Shown: piece after piece, positions 36,786 through 46,491 of the stretch | Layout: each line of letters begins with the position of its first letter | Numbering within the stretch: the stretch's first letter is position 1 | Origin: Solirubrobacteraceae bacterium | Lineage (GTDB): Bacteria > Actinomycetota > Thermoleophilia > Solirubrobacterales > Solirubrobacteraceae | Assembly: GCA_030690545.1 (NCBI GenBank) | Contig: JAUYGN010000050.1 | Span: 1 to 51,064 of the forward strand | Direction of reading: 5' to 3' | DNA length: 51,064 nt | The notes under the pieces: model-generated | Seen by the model: the letters and a program-made list of their open reading frames with translations, nothing else | Told to the model about the DNA's origin: nothing | Database searches by the model: none | Program-made: the position numbers and the translations under genes

Positions 36786-36857
36786 CTGCCGGGCAAGGAC
36801 TCGAACCTTGAATTCCAGGGCCAGAACCTGGCGAGTTGCCGATTACTCCACCCGGCA
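36786..36857 (-). tRNA. tRNA-Gln (anticodon CTG)
   Basis: A complete 72-nt cloverleaf: acceptor TGCCGGG pairing with CCCGGCA, D stem GAGT/ACTC, anticodon stem CCAGG/CCTGG with loop TTCTGGC (anticodon CTG, reading CAG), variable AATT, T stem CAAGG/CCTTG with TTCGAGT loop, discriminator G. CCA is not encoded. It lies between the ABC exporter and the acetyltransferase, opposite in strand to both. Confidence 0.96.
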
Positions 36858-36913
36858 AGGCAGTGCGCGAGTATAGCCACGGCGATGCGCGGCATCCGGG
36901 TACGAGGAGGTCC

Positions 36914-37513
36914 ATGAGCGAGATGAAGGATCGGATGCTGCGCGGCGAGCTGTACATCGCCGACGACCCGGTGCTGGCAGCCGACACGGCGCGCGCGCAG
37001 GCGCTGCTCGAGCGCTACAACGCGACCCGCCACGACGAGCAGGCCGAGCGCGACCGCCTGCTGCGCGAGCTGCTCGGAAGCGTCGGCGACGGGGTCGTCG
37101 TGCGGCCCGCGCTGCGCTGCGACTACGGCACGCAGGTCACGATCGGCGCCGGCAGCTTCGTCAACTACGACTGCGTCCTGCTCGACGTCGCGGCGATCAC
37201 GATCGGCGCCGCCTGCCAGATCGCCCCGCGCGTGCAGCTGCTGACCGCGACGCACCCCGTCGACCCCGGCCCGCGCCGCGCCGGCTGGGAGTCGGGGGCA
37301 CCGATCGCGATCGGCGACAACGTCTGGCTCGGCGGCGGCGCGATCGTCTGCCCCGGCGTGACGATCGGCGAGGACAGCGTCGTCGGCGCCGGCGCGGTCG
37401 TCACGCGCGACCTGCCGGCGGGCGTCGTCGCGGTCGGCAACCCCGCGCGCGTGCTGCGCGAGATCGGCGAGCGCGACCGCGTCGATCCCGTCAGGCGCGA
37501 AACTGCGCCGTGA
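36914..37513 (+). CDS. maa: Maltose/galactoside-type O-acetyltransferase
   Basis: 199 residues from ATG 36914 with GGAGG 3-8 bases upstream. The N-terminal MAC domain (KDRMLRGELYIADDPVLAAD...) is followed by left-handed hexapeptide repeats: CDYGTQVTIGAGSFVNYDC, then the catalytic-His segment TATHPVDPGPRR, then AIGDNVWLGGGAIVCPGVTIGEDSVVGAGAVVTRDLP, ending in the acetyl-CoA loop. It transfers acetyl groups from acetyl-CoA to a sugar hydroxyl. The 3' end overlaps convergently with the RCK gene by 23 bases. Substrate unknown; family naming is by similarity. Confidence 0.9.
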   Translation: MSEMKDRMLRGELYIADDPVLAADTARAQALLERYNATRHDEQAERDRLLRELLGSVGDGVVVRPALRCDYGTQVTIGAGSFVNYDCVLLDVAAITIGAACQIAPRVQLLTATHPVDPGPRRAGWESGAPIAIGDNVWLGGGAIVCPGVTIGEDSVVGAGAVVTRDLPAGVVAVGNPARVLREIGERDRVDPVRRETAP

Positions 37514-38197: not shown

Positions 38198-38629
38198 CTA
38201 GGCGGTGGCGATGTCCGCGATCGCCTGCTCGAACATCGCGATGCCGACCTTCACGGCGCAGATCGTGTGCAGCCCCTGCTCGGCGTACCAGTCCGAGCGG
38301 GCCGGGTCGAGCACGCGCACGATCACGTGCCCGACGCCGAAGCGCTTCTGCGCGACCTGCGCGACGAGCAGGTTCGTGTTGTCGCCGCTCGTCGCGGCGA
38401 TGAAGACGTCGGCCTGCTCGACGCCGGCCGCGACCAGCGCCTCGATCTCGATCGCCGTGCCGACGGTGAACTGCCCGCCGGCGTCCTCCCAGGAGGTCGG
38501 CTGGCCGGCGTCGAGGCGCTCGTGCGAGAGCGGGTCTGCGTCGAGCACCGAGACCGTGTGACCGGCGGCGAGCGAGGACTTCGCAACCGCCGCGCCGACG
38601 CGGCCCGCCCCGACGACGAGGACCATCAT
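38198..38629 (-). CDS. RCK_N-only (TrkA-N) protein
   Basis: 143 residues from ATG 38629. A single RCK_N domain: MVLVVGAGRVGAAVAKSSLAAGHTVSVLDADP with GAGRVG, FTVGTAIEIEALVAAGVEQADVFIAATSGDNTNLLVAQVAQKRF, VRVLDPARSDWYAEQG, then a short helix. It lacks RCK_C. Two RCK proteins side by side, one complete and one N-only, suggest a hetero-octameric ring. Transcribed with the gene downstream. Confidence 0.88.
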   Translation of the reverse strand: MMVLVVGAGRVGAAVAKSSLAAGHTVSVLDADPLSHERLDAGQPTSWEDAGGQFTVGTAIEIEALVAAGVEQADVFIAATSGDNTNLLVAQVAQKRFGVGHVIVRVLDPARSDWYAEQGLHTICAVKVGIAMFEQAIADIATA

Positions 38630-38722
38630 CGCAAGCCGGCGCGATCAGGTCTTCGGCGAGTCACCGTCGAGCAACGACGCGCTGTCATGGGCCCGATGCT
38701 AGTCGACGATCTGTAGCTCGAG

Positions 38723-38737
38723 TGTGAACGTTTCGCA
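38723..38737. repeat. Palindrome upstream of the RCK pair
   Basis: TGTGAA-CGT-TTCGCA (5 of 6 paired) lies about 95 bases upstream of the RCK_N-only gene, between it and the end of the APC permease. It is a possible operator. It does not match the Rex consensus spacing (six bases between half-sites). Confidence 0.3.
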
Positions 38738-38755
38738 TGCGGACGCCGGCGCCGA

Positions 38756-40669
38756 TCATCCATCCTCATCGCCCGGCGGCGCCGTGAGGATCACGCGGCA
38801 GGGCGCCTTGCGCACGACGTGCTTCGTCGCCTCGCCGACGAAGTTGTCCAGCGGGCCGCCGACGCCGCCCAGGCGCGCCCCGCCGCGGATCCGCGACGGC
38901 TCCTCGGCGGCGAGGACGATCAGCTCCACGCCGCGCCGCGCGGCCTCGCGGACGATCCCCTCGCCGACGCGGCGCGCGCGCACCGTCGCCGTCATCACCT
39001 CGACGCCCTCGTACTCCTCCCCGACCGCCTTGGCGCGCGCCAGCGCGGCGTCCGCCGCTCGCAGCTGGGCCTCCGGCAGGCGGGCGTCGAGCGGCAGCGA
39101 CAGCGGCACCTCGAAGACCCAGATCGCCTCGATCGTCGCGCCGCGACCGGCGCCCTCCTCCGGGTCCTCTGACGCCGCCAGGCGGCCGGCCGTCTGCACG
39201 ATGTCGTCGTCCAGGGCACTGCCGAAGACGGGCACGAGGATCGAGCCGTACTCCGCTCGCGCGGTCTCGGCGCGTGACAGCACGGTTTCCGAGACGACGA
39301 CGCGAGCGAGCAGCGGCATCCCCATGCGACGCCGGTAGCCGACGTAGAGCGCGACGCCGACCGCCATCCAGACGAGGCCGACCGTCCGCGCGCCCGCGTG
39401 GAACGCCAGCAGGCTGACGAGGCCGCCGGCCGCCATCAGCGCGCCGAGCACCGCCGGCAGCGGCAGCTCGCCGCGACCGATGCGCAGCGACGGCGCGATC
39501 CGGTAGGGCCGCGGACGATCGGGTTGGCGGTAGCGCAGCACGCAGATCGACACGTGCGCGATCAGGAACGCGAGCATCGCGCCGAACGCGTAGATCCCGA
39601 CGAGGAACTCGAGGTCGCGCGGGAGGACGAGCACCGACGCCAGCAGCGCCGCCAGCGCGATCACGACATACGGCGTGCCATGGCGCCGATGCAGGCGGCC
39701 GATCACCGTCGGGATCTGCCGGTTCGTGCCCAGCGAGTAGGCCAGTCGCGACAGCCCGAGCATCGCCCCGTGCGCGGCGACGACGAGCGTGATCGTCGCC
39801 AGCGCGGCGATCGCATAGCGCAGGCCCTCGGCCAGCCACGGGGGATCGAACGCCGCGACGAGCGCCAGCACGGGTGCGTCGCGCGCCTCCTCGGTCAGCG
39901 GCGCCGCGCCCGGCGTGACCGGCAGCGAGGCGACGGCGACGAGCGAGATGCCGACGTAGATCACGAGCACCGAGACCGTCGTGCCGGCGAGCAGGCGCCG
40001 CAGGTCGCGCCGGCTGACGCGCACCTCGCCGGCCAGGCCCGACGCCGCCTCCAGACCGGTGAACGCGACGGTCGACACCGTCAGGGCGAACAGCAGGCCC
40101 TCCCAGCTGGGCGAGGTCCCGAGCTCGATCGTCCTCGTAAGCGCCTCGATGTCGACGATCAGCAGCGCGCCGAGCACGACGATCAGCAGCTGCAGCAGGA
40201 CGTCGACGACGACGAGCGCCGAGACGCGCTCGATCGTGCGCCCGCCGCCGGCGCCGCGGATGTTGCGCAGCGCGACGTAGCCGATGATCCCGAGCGCCAG
40301 CGTGATCTCGAGCGCGCCGCTGCCGAGCGGCTCCCAGAACCCCGCGCCGTAGTGCGTCGCCACGAACGCCGTCACGGCGATCAGGATCAGGAAGTCCAGC
40401 AGGACCGCCCAGCCGGCGATGAAGCTCCACAGCTCGTCGAAGGCGTGGCGCGCGAAGACCGTCGAGCCGGCGCGCTCGGGGAGCATCGAGGCGCCCTCGA
40501 CGTACGTCATCGCGGTCAGCGCGAAGAAGATCGCGGCGCCGAGGAAGACGACCGGCGTCAGGCCGAGCGCGTTCTGCGCGACGACGCCGAGCGAGAAGTA
40601 GACGGCGGCCGCGAGCGACGACCAGACGATCGCGAACAGCGCCGCCGCGCCGGGGCTTCGGCGGAGCAT
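38756..40669 (-). CDS. APC-superfamily permease with USP-like cytoplasmic tail
   Basis: 637 residues from ATG 40669. Twelve transmembrane helices of the amino-acid/polyamine/organocation fold in the first ~440 residues: AIVWSSLAAAVYFSLGVVAQN, FFALTAMTYVEGASMLPERAGSTVFARHAFDELW, VAFTGLEAASGLAGEVRVSRRDLRR. A ~180-residue soluble tail follows from about residue 450, built as a universal-stress-protein-like alpha/beta domain (YGSILVPVFGSALDDDIVQTAGRLAA, VELIVLAAEEPSRIRGGARLGG). Next to two RCK genes and a near-identical permease; potassium transport (KimA-like) is possible, but the sequence also fits an amino-acid permease. Confidence 0.85.
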   Translation of the reverse strand: MLRRSPGAAALFAIVWSSLAAAVYFSLGVVAQNALGLTPVVFLGAAIFFALTAMTYVEGASMLPERAGSTVFARHAFDELWSFIAGWAVLLDFLILIAVTAFVATHYGAGFWEPLGSGALEITLALGIIGYVALRNIRGAGGGRTIERVSALVVVDVLLQLLIVVLGALLIVDIEALTRTIELGTSPSWEGLLFALTVSTVAFTGLEAASGLAGEVRVSRRDLRRLLAGTTVSVLVIYVGISLVAVASLPVTPGAAPLTEEARDAPVLALVAAFDPPWLAEGLRYAIAALATITLVVAAHGAMLGLSRLAYSLGTNRQIPTVIGRLHRRHGTPYVVIALAALLASVLVLPRDLEFLVGIYAFGAMLAFLIAHVSICVLRYRQPDRPRPYRIAPSLRIGRGELPLPAVLGALMAAGGLVSLLAFHAGARTVGLVWMAVGVALYVGYRRRMGMPLLARVVVSETVLSRAETARAEYGSILVPVFGSALDDDIVQTAGRLAASEDPEEGAGRGATIEAIWVFEVPLSLPLDARLPEAQLRAADAALARAKAVGEEYEGVEVMTATVRARRVGEGIVREAARRGVELIVLAAEEPSRIRGGARLGGVGGPLDNFVGEATKHVVRKAPCRVILTAPPGDEDG

Positions 40670-40694
40670 CAGCGCGCGCTCCGGCGCATCGGTC

Positions 40695-40904
40695 TCACAG
40701 CCGCCGCCAGGTGACGTACAGCCGGCCGCCGCCGGCCGCGACGAACAGCAGGCCGAGCACGGTGCCGAGCGCCAGCGGGCCGCCGCCGGCGCCGAACGTG
40801 CGCACGAGGATCGCCAGGCCGAGCACGGCCATCGCCGCCGACAGGACCATCGTCATGGCGCGGTGCAGGTCGCGGCCGGCTCCGGGCGGAGGGCGCTCAG
40901 GCAT
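40695..40904 (-). CDS. Small membrane protein between the two APC permeases
   Basis: 69 residues from ATG 40904, overlapping the stop of the upstream permease by 8 bases. Two helices: MTMVLSAAMAVLGLAILVRTF and PLALGTVLGLLFVAAGGGRLYVTW, with a basic, Pro-rich N-terminus. It ends 25 bases before the next permease. The family is unknown; a small accessory subunit of the permeases is plausible. Confidence 0.6.
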   Translation of the reverse strand: MPERPPPGAGRDLHRAMTMVLSAAMAVLGLAILVRTFGAGGGPLALGTVLGLLFVAAGGGRLYVTWRRL

Positions 40905-42777
40905 GCGCGGCGGGCTCGGATTCGATGATCACGCGGCAGGGCCGGTCCGCGAGCACGGTCTCGACGGTCTTGCCGAAGACCGTCGTGCCGGTCCGCGGCG
41001 GCAGCGGCAGGACGACCGCGTGGGCGCGCATCGCGCGCGCCTCGTCGACGATCAGCCGGCCGCTTCCGCCGGGCCGGACGCGCTCGACGTGACCGTTGAC
41101 GCGGCGCCCGCCCTGCGCCCGCGCGCGTTCGATGACCGCGCGCGCGGCGAGCTCCTCCTCGGGCAGCTCGGCGTCGATCGGCGAGGCCTGCGGGACGGTG
41201 ATCAGGACGAGCACGTGGATGCCGCGGCGCTTGCGCCCGGCGAGCTTCGTCGCCGTCGCGATCGTCGTCGGCGAATCGTGACGGGCGTCGAGCGCGACGA
41301 GCACCGACTCGTACTCGGCCTCCGTCTGCGTCACCGGCTGGGGCACGGCGACCTGGTGGGTGGAGACGAAGTCCAGCCCCTGGCTGCGCCGGTACAGCAG
41401 GTAGCCGCCGATGCCGAGCGCCATCCAGGCGACCCCGGCGATGCCGACCGTCAGGTCCAGGACGCTGACGACGACGAACGACAGCGCGGTCCCGGCGAGG
41501 CCGACGACCGCCAGCGGCGGCAGCTCGTGGCCGCGCACGCGCAGCCGGCCGGGGCTGCGGTACGGGCGTCGCTGGTCGGGCGCGCTGACGCGCAGGCAGA
41601 TCAGCGAGAGGTGGGCCATCGAGAACGACAGCATCGCGCCGAAGGCGTAGATCTTGCCCAGGAACGCCGCCTGGCCCGGCAGCAGCGCCAGGCATGCGAA
41701 GCCCGAGAAGACGAGGATGCCGATGTACGGCGTGCGGTAGCGCTTGTGCAGCCGGCGCATCGTGTCGGGCAGCTGGCGGTACATGCCCATCGAGTACGTC
41801 AGCCGCGAGACGCCGAGCACGCCGGCGTTCGTCGCGGCGATCAGGATCGTCACCGCGAGGACGCCGACGTAGAGCTCGATCGCGCCGGCGAAGATGCCGA
41901 GCTCCATCCCCGACACGACGCCGATGATCGGGTCGTTGGCGAAGCCGCCGTCCTGCGGGCCGACGCCGAGCAGCGTGCGGCACTCGCCGCCGGGCAGGCA
42001 CTCGACGGGCAGCGCCGACAGGGCGATCAGCGGCAGCGTGAAGTAGATCGCGAAGACGGCGATCATCACGCGCTTGATCGCGGCCGGGATCGTGCTGTCC
42101 GGATCGCGCGCCTCGCCGGCCATGTTCGAGATCGTCTCGATGCCGGTGTAGGCGACGGTGCCGATCGGGATCGCCAGCAGGAACTGCGTCAGCGTCGGCG
42201 TCTCGCCGAGGAAGTCGAGGTTGTCGACGAGGATCGCGGGATTGAAGACGAGCACGACGCCGAGCCCGACGATCGCCAGCTGGCTCATGAAGTCGACGAC
42301 GGCGAGCACGAGGTTGACGCTGACGGCGTCCTTGACGCCGCGCACGTTGACCAGCGCCAGCAGCGCCACGACGACCGCCGCGAAGACGATGTCGCCCGGC
42401 GCCCCCTTGAAGCCGTCCCAGGTGAAGCGCCCGGCGTAGTGGGCCGCGAAGAACGCCGAGATCGCGATCGTGATGATGTAGTTGAGCATCTGCGCCCAGG
42501 CCGTGAAGAACGACCACAGCTCGTTGAACGCGCGCCGCGCGAACAGCGACGAGCCGCCCGCCTCGGGGTACATCGACGTCGCCTCGGCGTACGTCGTGGC
42601 GGTGCAGTAGAAGAGCGCGCCCGTGAGCAGGAAGACGAGCGGCGTCAGGCCGGCGGCGAGCGCGGCGACGAGCCCCAGCGCGTAGTAGATCGACGAGCCG
42701 ACGTTGCCGTAGGCGGTCGAGAAGAGCGCGTTGACCCCGAGCACGCGCTGCAGGCCGTGGAGCTGGCGCTCTGCCAT
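40897..42777 (-). CDS. APC-superfamily permease with USP-like tail, second copy
   Basis: 626 residues from ATG 42777 (MAERQLHGLQRVLG); the longer in-frame start at 42879 adds 34 Arg-rich residues and is less likely. Same layout as the copy at 38756: helix 1 FSTAYGNVGSSIYYALGLVAAL, FYCTATTYAEATSMYPEAGGSSLFARRAFNELW, VAYTGIETISNMAGEARDPDST, and a C-terminal USP-like domain from about residue 480 (YESVLVALDARHDSPTTIATATKLAG, then VRPGGSGRLIVDEARAMRAHAVVLPL). It starts a run of five minus-strand genes that includes the RCK pair. Confidence 0.85.
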   Translation of the reverse strand: MAERQLHGLQRVLGVNALFSTAYGNVGSSIYYALGLVAALAAGLTPLVFLLTGALFYCTATTYAEATSMYPEAGGSSLFARRAFNELWSFFTAWAQMLNYIITIAISAFFAAHYAGRFTWDGFKGAPGDIVFAAVVVALLALVNVRGVKDAVSVNLVLAVVDFMSQLAIVGLGVVLVFNPAILVDNLDFLGETPTLTQFLLAIPIGTVAYTGIETISNMAGEARDPDSTIPAAIKRVMIAVFAIYFTLPLIALSALPVECLPGGECRTLLGVGPQDGGFANDPIIGVVSGMELGIFAGAIELYVGVLAVTILIAATNAGVLGVSRLTYSMGMYRQLPDTMRRLHKRYRTPYIGILVFSGFACLALLPGQAAFLGKIYAFGAMLSFSMAHLSLICLRVSAPDQRRPYRSPGRLRVRGHELPPLAVVGLAGTALSFVVVSVLDLTVGIAGVAWMALGIGGYLLYRRSQGLDFVSTHQVAVPQPVTQTEAEYESVLVALDARHDSPTTIATATKLAGRKRRGIHVLVLITVPQASPIDAELPEEELAARAVIERARAQGGRRVNGHVERVRPGGSGRLIVDEARAMRAHAVVLPLPPRTGTTVFGKTVETVLADRPCRVIIESEPAAHA

Positions 42778-44412: not shown

Positions 44413-46491
44413 CTACGCGACCAGGGGGATGATGAGGATCGCGACGATGTTCGCGACCTTGATCATCGGGTTGATCGCGGGGCCGGAGGTGTCCTTGTAG
44501 GGGTCGCCGACCGTGTCGCCGGTGATCGACGCCTCGTGAGCAAGGGTGCCCTTGCCGCCGAAGGCGCCCTCCTCGATGAGCTTCTTCGCGTTGTCCCACG
44601 CGCCGCCGCCGGCGGTCATCGAGACGGCCATGAAGAGGCCGACGACGATCACGCCGATCAGCAGGCCGCCGAGCGCCTCGACGCTGAGCAGGCCGACGAT
44701 CAGCGTGAAGACGATCGGGATCATCGACGGGATCACCATCTCGCGCTGCGCGGTCTTCGTGACGATGTCGACGCAGGCGGCGTAGTCGGGCTTCTCGGAG
44801 CCGTCCATGATGCCCGGCTTCTCCTTGAACTGGCGGCGCACCTCCTCGACGACGGCGCCGCCGGCGCGGCCGACGGCCTCCATCGAGAGCGCCGCGAACA
44901 GGTAGACCATCAGGCCGCCGACGAGCAGGCCGATCAGCACGAGCGGCGTGTCGATCAGGAACTCGACCGGCTCCTTGCCGTTGGCGACGAGCTCCTCCTC
45001 GAGCTCGATCTTGAACGCGGCGAACAGCACGAGCGCGGCGAGCACCGCCGAGCCGATCGCGTAGCCCTTCGTGACGGCCTTGGTCGTGTTGCCGACGGCG
45101 TCGAGCGGGTCGGTGACCGCGCGGACCTCCTCGGGCATCTCGGCCATCTCGGCGATCCCGCCGGCGTTGTCGGTGATCGGCCCGAACGCGTCGAGCGCGA
45201 CGATCAGGCCGCAGAGGCCGAGCTGCGCCATGACGGCGACGCCGATGCCGTAGATGCCGCCGAGCTCGTTGGCGCCGTAGATGCCGAGCGCGAGCACGAC
45301 CGCCGGCAGCGCCGTCGCCTGCATGCCCTGCGAGAGGCCGGAGATGATGTTCGTCGCGTGGCCGGTCTGCGAGGCGTCGGCCGTCTTCTTGACGGGGCCG
45401 AAGCGCGTCGACGTGTAGTAGTCGGTGATCAGGAACAGCAGCGCCGTGACGGCGAGGCCGATCAGCGAGCAGAGGTACAGGTCGCCGGTCGACGGGGCGA
45501 ACACGCTCGGGTCGGCGGTCGCCGTCTCGAGGTTGCCCATCATCCACTTCGTGATCGGGTAGAAGGCGGCTGCCGCGATCACGCCCGACAGGAGCAGGCC
45601 CTGGTAGAGCGCGCGCTCGACGTTGCCGGCGGCCGACTTGACCGCGAAGGTGCCGATGATCGAGGCGAGGATCGCCACGGCGCCGAGCATGAGCGGATAG
45701 AGGGCGACCTGCGTCGCGTTGTCGCCGGCGAACGTCAGCACGCCGAGCAGCATCACCGCGACGGCGGTGACGGCGTACGTCTCGAAGAGGTCGGCGGCCA
45801 TGCCGGCGCAGTCGCCGACGTTGTCGCCGACGTTGTCGGCGATCACGGCCGGGTTGCGCGGGTCGTCCTCGGGGATGCCGGCCTCGACCTTGCCGACGAG
45901 GTCGGCGCCGACGTCGGCGCCCTTCGTGAAGATGCCGCCGCCGAGACGGGCGAAGACGGAGATCAGCGAGCCGCCGAAGCCAAGGCCGATGAGTGCGTCG
46001 ATCGCTTCCTTCTGCGTGCTGTCGAAGACGGCCGTCAGCAGCCCGTAGTAGCCGGCGACGCCGATCAGGGCCATGCCGACGACGAGCATTCCGGTGATCG
46101 CGCCGCCGCGGAAGGCGGCGTTCAGCGCCGGCGGGATGCCGCCGCGGGCGGCCTCCGCGACGCGGCAGTTCGCGCGTACCGAGACGTTCATGCCGACGAA
46201 GCCGGCGGCGGCGGACAGGATGCCGCCGAGCGCGAACCCGACCGCCACCTCGATGCTCTGCAGCGGGATCAGGACGGCGAACAGGACGGCGCCGACGATG
46301 CCGATCGTCGTGTACTGGCGGCGCAGGTATGCCGATGCACCCTCCTGCACGGCCGCCGAGATCGCCACCATCCGCTCGTTGCCCGGTGAAAGCGCGAGCA
46401 ACGAGCGTGTCGTCAGCGCGCCATAGAGCACTGCGAGGCCGGCGCACAGCAGCGCGACGACGACCCCGTGGTCCAACAGGAAATCACTCAA
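44413..46491 (-). CDS. hppA: Membrane-bound proton-translocating pyrophosphatase (K+-independent type)
   Basis: 692 residues from TTG 46491, with GGAGG 10-14 bases upstream. Sixteen transmembrane helices expected; all active-site motifs are present: [45 protein letters not shown] (the PPi/Mg site), [14 protein letters not shown], and the late AFGGKG with its following Asp-rich loop ([23 protein letters not shown]). Position 471 in [16 protein letters not shown] is Lys, the determinant of K+-independent H+-PPases; K+-dependent enzymes have Ala there. It pumps H+ using PPi from biosynthesis. It stands at the end of the rex/GCS2 run. Confidence 0.95.

Follow-up and report, generated by a model that had tools for sequence, protein, structure and literature searches.

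The window, by which we mean the whole stretch of 51,064 nucleotides that was analysed (contig C135 of a 3.53 Mb genome that is 98.6% complete), carries on its minus strand a block of genes in the order perm1–small–perm2–rckN–rckF. The gene perm1 (42777-40897) encodes 626 residues from an ATG at 42777, a start that is common to relatives in an alignment of 32 sequences, and its product matches the Pfam families AA_permease (9.5e-36), AA_permease_2 (3.4e-32) and Usp (5.1e-6). Its paralogue perm2 (40669-38756; 637 aa) matches AA_permease_2 (1.3e-33) and Usp (4.3e-8). Each permease thus combines a transmembrane part of the APC type with a Usp match at the C-terminus. Between them lies an open reading frame (ORF; 40904-40695) for a small protein of 69 aa with two hydrophobic stretches; it had no match to Pfam at 0.01, and an ORF matching it was found in 38 of 65 fetched loci. 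The two RCK genes follow. The rckN product (38629-38198; 143 aa) matches TrkA_N (5.5e-18) without TrkA_C, and that of rckF (38150-37491; 219 aa) matches both TrkA_N (1.1e-27) and TrkA_C (2.8e-13). An earlier note on this DNA had described a five-gene minus-strand run with a full RCK protein, an RCK_N-only protein, two APC-USP permeases and a small protein, and ORFs and Pfam bear out each of these parts. The range that it gave, 38198-42777, holds four of the genes, but the full RCK gene, rckF, lies just outside it.

No c-di-AMP (ydaO) riboswitch was found within the window. Upstream of the block is a gene for a membrane pyrophosphatase (H_PPase; 44413-46491, minus strand), whose GNTTKA motif we take to suggest a K+-independent type, and a gene that reads as the same pyrophosphatase lies upstream of the block in several relatives (L055, L064 and L096). 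A tRNA gene (36786-36857, minus strand; Rfam) overlaps the longest reading of a maltose acetyltransferase-like ORF (36836-37513, plus strand), the true start of which is probably further inside.

The locus was retrieved from 60 relatives, and its gene content in each was determined by BLAST. All four of perm1, perm2, rckN and rckF are found in one locus in 46 of the 60 relatives, so the neighbour set picked out by the earlier note is conserved and is not a product of chance. The four genes share a strand in 45 of these 46 loci, perm1 being reversed in G023. A further six relatives have perm2 with rckN, bringing the linkage total to 52/60; one of the six, G044, also has perm1, and its contig showed no rckF. 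The gap between rckN and rckF is -1 to 28 nt across relatives, and that between perm1 and perm2 is 183-369 nt in 44 of 45 loci, leaving room for a small gene. In G015, G017 and G051 the permease tandem reaches the contig end or lies on a contig without an RCK gene, and in two of the 60 relatives (G038 and G059) the permeases and RCKs are on different contigs. The RCK pair occurs without any permease in three of the 60 (G007, G030 and G031). In G007 and G031 (loci L050 and L076) it comes directly after a pyrophosphatase-like gene with no permeases between, which looks like the outcome of a deletion of the permeases.

Fourteen more loci from the class or family (L129–L137 and L180–L184) were divided between nine with RCKs and five with perm1 alone. 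The solitary perm1 genes, with neither perm2 nor an RCK gene nearby (L129, which is a short contig of 6962 bases, L130 and L132–L134), come from one family of the class, mostly from small genomes; they may function on their own or in partnership with an RCK encoded far away. Several relatives (L056, L065, L068 (3456-5354) and L095) have a third copy that resembles perm1, with 46-47% identity to it. This copy usually lies away from the RCK pair, and some of the genomes that have it also carry KimA. Searches of the phylum with perm1 alone or with a perm1 profile gave matches in the same class only. A mixed-profile search added six distant APC-USP loci (L174–L179) from members of the class and of the rest of the phylum; most of their proteins are about 770 aa or longer, no RCK is nearby, and we have taken them as another APC-USP family. 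No relatives of the block were found in viral contigs.

The RCK proteins were placed in a tree of 103 RCK_N domains, a short alignment of 128 columns. In this tree rckN falls together with the RCK that comes first in actinomycete KimA loci (support 100/98) and rckF with the one that comes second (87/73, moderate support only). The halves of TrkH-linked TrkA proteins, including those of the own genome (L004), fall elsewhere. Because of this grouping, apart from TrkH-linked TrkA, we assign the RCK pair to the CeoB/CeoC kind and, as judged from sequence, rckN and rckF are orthologous to the mycobacterial CeoB/CeoC pair. That pair consists of two complete RCK proteins, whereas rckN is without TrkA_C and has lost RCK_C. 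Another actinobacterium (G083, locus L194) has a second, divergent RCK pair of the CeoBC type with no KimA beside it.

In 14 of 16 RCK loci of other actinobacteria (L185–L200, the exceptions being L194 and L200) the gene next to the pair, divergent from it, encodes an APC permease of roughly 670 aa that is 38–42% identical to Bacillus subtilis KimA over 486–508 aligned positions and, by this measure, is a KimA orthologue. Pfam labels an actinomycete KimA orthologue as an amino-acid permease too, and the Pfam label 'amino acid permease' thus carries no weight. We also scanned with one actinomycete KimA orthologue and took the best 80 of 591 loci, all from named organisms, nearly all of them mycobacterial and M. 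tuberculosis not among them. In these best 80 of 591, two RCK genes are divergent from KimA in 80/80, the KimA pocket motifs of TM3, TM6 and TM10 are intact in 79, 77 and 80 loci, respectively, and the exact TM1 string SDALSSVAY is found in 54. This layout matches the gene order Rv2690c–ceoB–ceoC of M. tuberculosis. That ceoB adjoins Rv2690c is reported for M. tuberculosis (PMC12216072), and according to the same report rifampicin fitness is gained on transposon insertion in either ceoB or its neighbour Rv2690, both of which it calls Trk system genes. M. tuberculosis ceoB and ceoC together have been described as a Trk K+ uptake system, and deleted as such (PMC6375644). The literature on mycobacteria describes the Trk system as two TrkA proteins, and we found no description of a CeoBC–KimA link in the open-licence literature searched. 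Our results point to KimA (Rv2690c) as the membrane partner of mycobacterial CeoBC.

It could be argued that the RCK pair regulates, by itself, targets other than the permeases, and that it lies next to them only because the gene order was inherited. The relatives with the pair and no permeases (3/60), the two in which the genes are unlinked, the extra pair without KimA in L194 and the five class loci with perm1 and no RCK would all agree with such a regulator. Inherited order, however, does not explain why members of two different APC families, in two classes, have the same pair beside them in different orientations, and ceoB and Rv2690 mutants share a phenotype (PMC12216072). We consider this explanation quite improbable.

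We searched for TrkH, KdpA, Kup and KimA in 61 genomes, the own genome and the 60 relatives. TrkH was found in 12 of the 61, KdpA in 21, Kup above the cut-off in 19 and KimA in seven, and 25 have none of the four yet retain permeases of the block. When only good assemblies were counted (at least 90% complete with at most 5% contamination, which leaves out 15 of the 61 genomes), 18 of 46 had none of the four importers. All 18 keep perm1 and/or perm2, plus the RCK pair or part of it. The importer-less relatives include G037, a closed genome in a single contig, in which no TrkA_N match at E<=1e-10 was found beyond the two in the block. The elimination argument for K+ import is strong but not closed, because it covers these four families only.

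KimA is present in 3/3 relatives that have the RCK pair but no permease (G007, G030 and G031), versus four of the other 58 genomes (Fisher p 0.00097, a value that overstates independence because the complementarity comes from three genomes, two of them in one genus). All three have KdpA as well. On another contig of the own genome (C5:36522-39295; L001 and L004) a tandem TrkA precedes TrkH, and this TrkH with its own TrkA is a candidate second importer. The earlier note had held that a dedicated TrkH/KtrB as the RCK partner would speak against its reading; the own TrkH has its own tandem TrkA beside it, and 49 of the 61 genomes are without TrkH/KtrB.

We compared the permeases with KimA at the K+ site. 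In KimA, K+ is reported to lie between D36, Y43, T121, S125, T230 and Y377, with E233 proposed as the site of the proton, and the substitutions D36A/N and Y43A abolish K+ uptake (PMC6994465). At the six pocket sites perm1 has N, Y, T, S, T and Y in 32/32 sequences, so that five of the six are kept and the D36 position is always Asn. By comparison, 20/20 other APC carriers of the relatives, a control set whose substrates are unproven and of which 15 have Asp in the D36 column, match at 0–1 of the six. The D117 position is also Asn in 31/32 perm1 sequences. The E233 position is E in 30 and D in two of the 32, and as it is E in 16 and D in four of the 20 controls, this residue is not specific. 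The register of TM1 is ambiguous: hhalign pairs N16/Y23 with D36/Y43, while a Kup-like motif pairs N25/Y32, and our counts for the six sites use the motif register (YGNVGSS versus FGDIGTS). In the perm1 of the window the D36 position is Asn and the Y43 position is Tyr whichever register is chosen, and without TM1 the remaining four pocket sites still match KimA. The TM1 motif of perm1, AYGNVGSSIYYALG, resembles the Kup motif VFGDIGTSPLYAL from the Kup loci of relatives.

In amino-acid APC carriers G-x-G in TM1 is the substrate motif. The corresponding position is GSS in 32/32 perm1 sequences and mixed A/G/S in perm2.

The pocket of perm2 is degenerate. It matches KimA at 0–3 of the six sites and mostly fails at Y43, T121 and S125; the D36 position is S/T/A and others, and Asp is kept at the D117 position in 32/32. 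Glu is found at the D36 position of the second permease in two further loci from the class (AYGEIGSS and AYDEIGSS). On its own, perm2 has little resemblance to a K+ carrier.

Of the facts that speak against a KimA-like mechanism for perm1, the D36N result in KimA weighs most. The K+-Cl- cotransporter KCC4 is described as binding K+ through backbone carbonyls of N131 and I132 (TM1) and P429 and T432 (TM6) and through a TM3 tyrosine (PMC7200160). By this comparison, an analogy with no alignment behind it, the loss of Asp in perm1 need not exclude K+. The loss of both KimA acids, D36 and D117, would also suit a perm1 that moves another cation, such as ammonium or Na+, or that exports K+. We give this possibility very little credence, since the T, S, T and Y ligand positions are kept and the permeases show complementarity with importers.

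A profile search of the PDB with perm1 gave 2.1e-23 for amino-acid carriers versus 3.1e-10 for KimA, and KimA was not listed at 0.01 when perm1 was used as a single sequence. In a tree of 43 rows, KimA and Kup are on one side (98/99) and perm1, perm2 and generic carriers are on the other, with long branches. Matches of the permeases to curated NCBIfam models were all below cut-off. The predicted structure of perm1, made from a shallow alignment, has a mean pLDDT of 50 and a pTM of 0.50, values so low that we base nothing on it. We considered perm1 and perm2 as members of the KimA/KUP family and rejected this, because they form a separate clade and D36 is replaced; they may work like KimA though they are not members.

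These relationships raise the possibility that perm1 and perm2 are amino-acid (or polyamine) carriers tuned by the RCK pair to the K+ or osmotic state, with K+ itself entering through TrkH or channels. Such carriers would account for the nearest solved relatives, the placement in the tree with generic APC carriers, the Pfam and NCBIfam labels, the missing D36 and the TrkH of the own genome. They would leave 18 of 46 good assemblies without any searched-for K+ importer, and would not account for the GSS in 32/32 perm1 sequences or the presence of KimA in all three genomes that lost the permeases; the Pfam label is shared by KimA orthologues, and no curated NCBIfam cut-off is reached. We regard amino-acid transport as unlikely.

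In sum, we think that the block is likely to work in K+ uptake, with an APC-fold carrier under the control of an RCK pair of the CeoBC type, the kind that mycobacteria require for taking up potassium. The genomic case for this K+ reading is strong, and the reading is supported by the CeoB/CeoC orthology, the permease linkage, the absence of importers, the KimA complementarity, the perm1 pocket and the ceoB/Rv2690 phenotype. It is weakened by Asn at D36 and D117, by the sequence kinship with amino-acid carriers and the tree placement, and by the solitary perm1 loci, the unlinked RCKs of two relatives, the lack of a ydaO riboswitch and the own TrkH and TrkA. The earlier note had proposed that the permeases may be RCK-regulated K+ transporters and not amino-acid carriers. 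The linked CeoBC-type pair, the many relatives without searched-for importers and the KimA-like pocket of perm1 agree with that proposal; membership of the KimA family is not supported, and the perm2 pocket does not fit a K+ carrier.

Based on these results, we propose a model for the block. perm1 would be a K+-conducting carrier of the APC/LeuT fold, probably coupled to H+ through E214. perm2 may be a structural or regulatory paralogue, perhaps a heteromer partner, as its conservation next to perm1 suggests. rckN and rckF may form an RCK assembly of the CeoB/CeoC type that contacts the carrier and gates it on nucleotide, which would be consistent with the linkage and with CeoBC genetics. The usual RCK ligands are NAD(H), ATP/ADP or c-di-AMP. 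We hypothesize that an ancestral actinobacterial RCK pair has APC-fold K+ carriers as its partners: these would be perm1/perm2 in this class, and KimA in the mycobacteria and in other actinomycetes.

Known RCK domains belong to K+ channels and to translocators of the TrkH/KtrB type. The wider form of our model is that across actinobacteria the CeoB/CeoC-type pair gates LeuT-fold K+ carriers and not TrkH channels: KimA in mycobacteria, where the 'Trk' system of M. tuberculosis would have in Rv2690c its missing membrane subunit, and the tandem perm1/perm2 in this class, the partner having been swapped and the regulator kept. We give this an even chance of being right. If it is true, the combination of an RCK pair with a LeuT-fold secondary carrier that it controls would be new, and no description of one appeared in the open-licence literature searched. 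A K+ importer would be named for bacteria without TrkH, KdpA, Kup and KimA, the 'amino acid permease' label would be corrected, and there would be a testable answer to what CeoB/CeoC target in mycobacteria.

The block can be compared with several known systems. The amino-acid carriers GkApcT, BasC and LAT/xCT are closest to perm1 by sequence and share its fold, whereas perm1 has GSS for GxG in TM1, Thr/Tyr in TM6/TM10 and a long C-terminal USP domain. The SLC12 cotransporter KCC4 has a K+ site without Asp (PMC7200160), and the mapping of this site to perm1 is our own reading; a search of the PDB with the perm1 profile matched no SLC12 chain at E<=0.1. The Trk/Ktr systems (TrkH/KtrB with TrkA/KtrA) resemble the block in RCK control of K+ uptake, which is putative here, but the block has an APC-fold carrier instead of a TrkH/KtrB subunit and its RCK clade is separate from TrkH-linked TrkA. 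KimA (YdaO), a K+/H+ symporter of the KUP family, shares with perm1 the APC fold, a C-terminal cytosolic alpha/beta domain and the pocket residues at the Y43, T121, S125, T230, Y377 and E233 positions, and the same RCK pair lies beside mycobacterial KimA. The differences are Asn at D36 and D117 of perm1, the separate clade, the tandem paralogues and an identity of about 19% (80 of 430 aligned); moreover, the KimA domain is described as PPAT-like (PMC10284832), in contrast to the Usp match of perm1 and perm2. The CeoB/CeoC pair of Mycobacterium is orthologous to rckN/rckF by sequence, has the same order and likewise adjoins an APC carrier. The mycobacterial neighbour is a divergent KimA, whereas here it is perm1/perm2 on the same strand.
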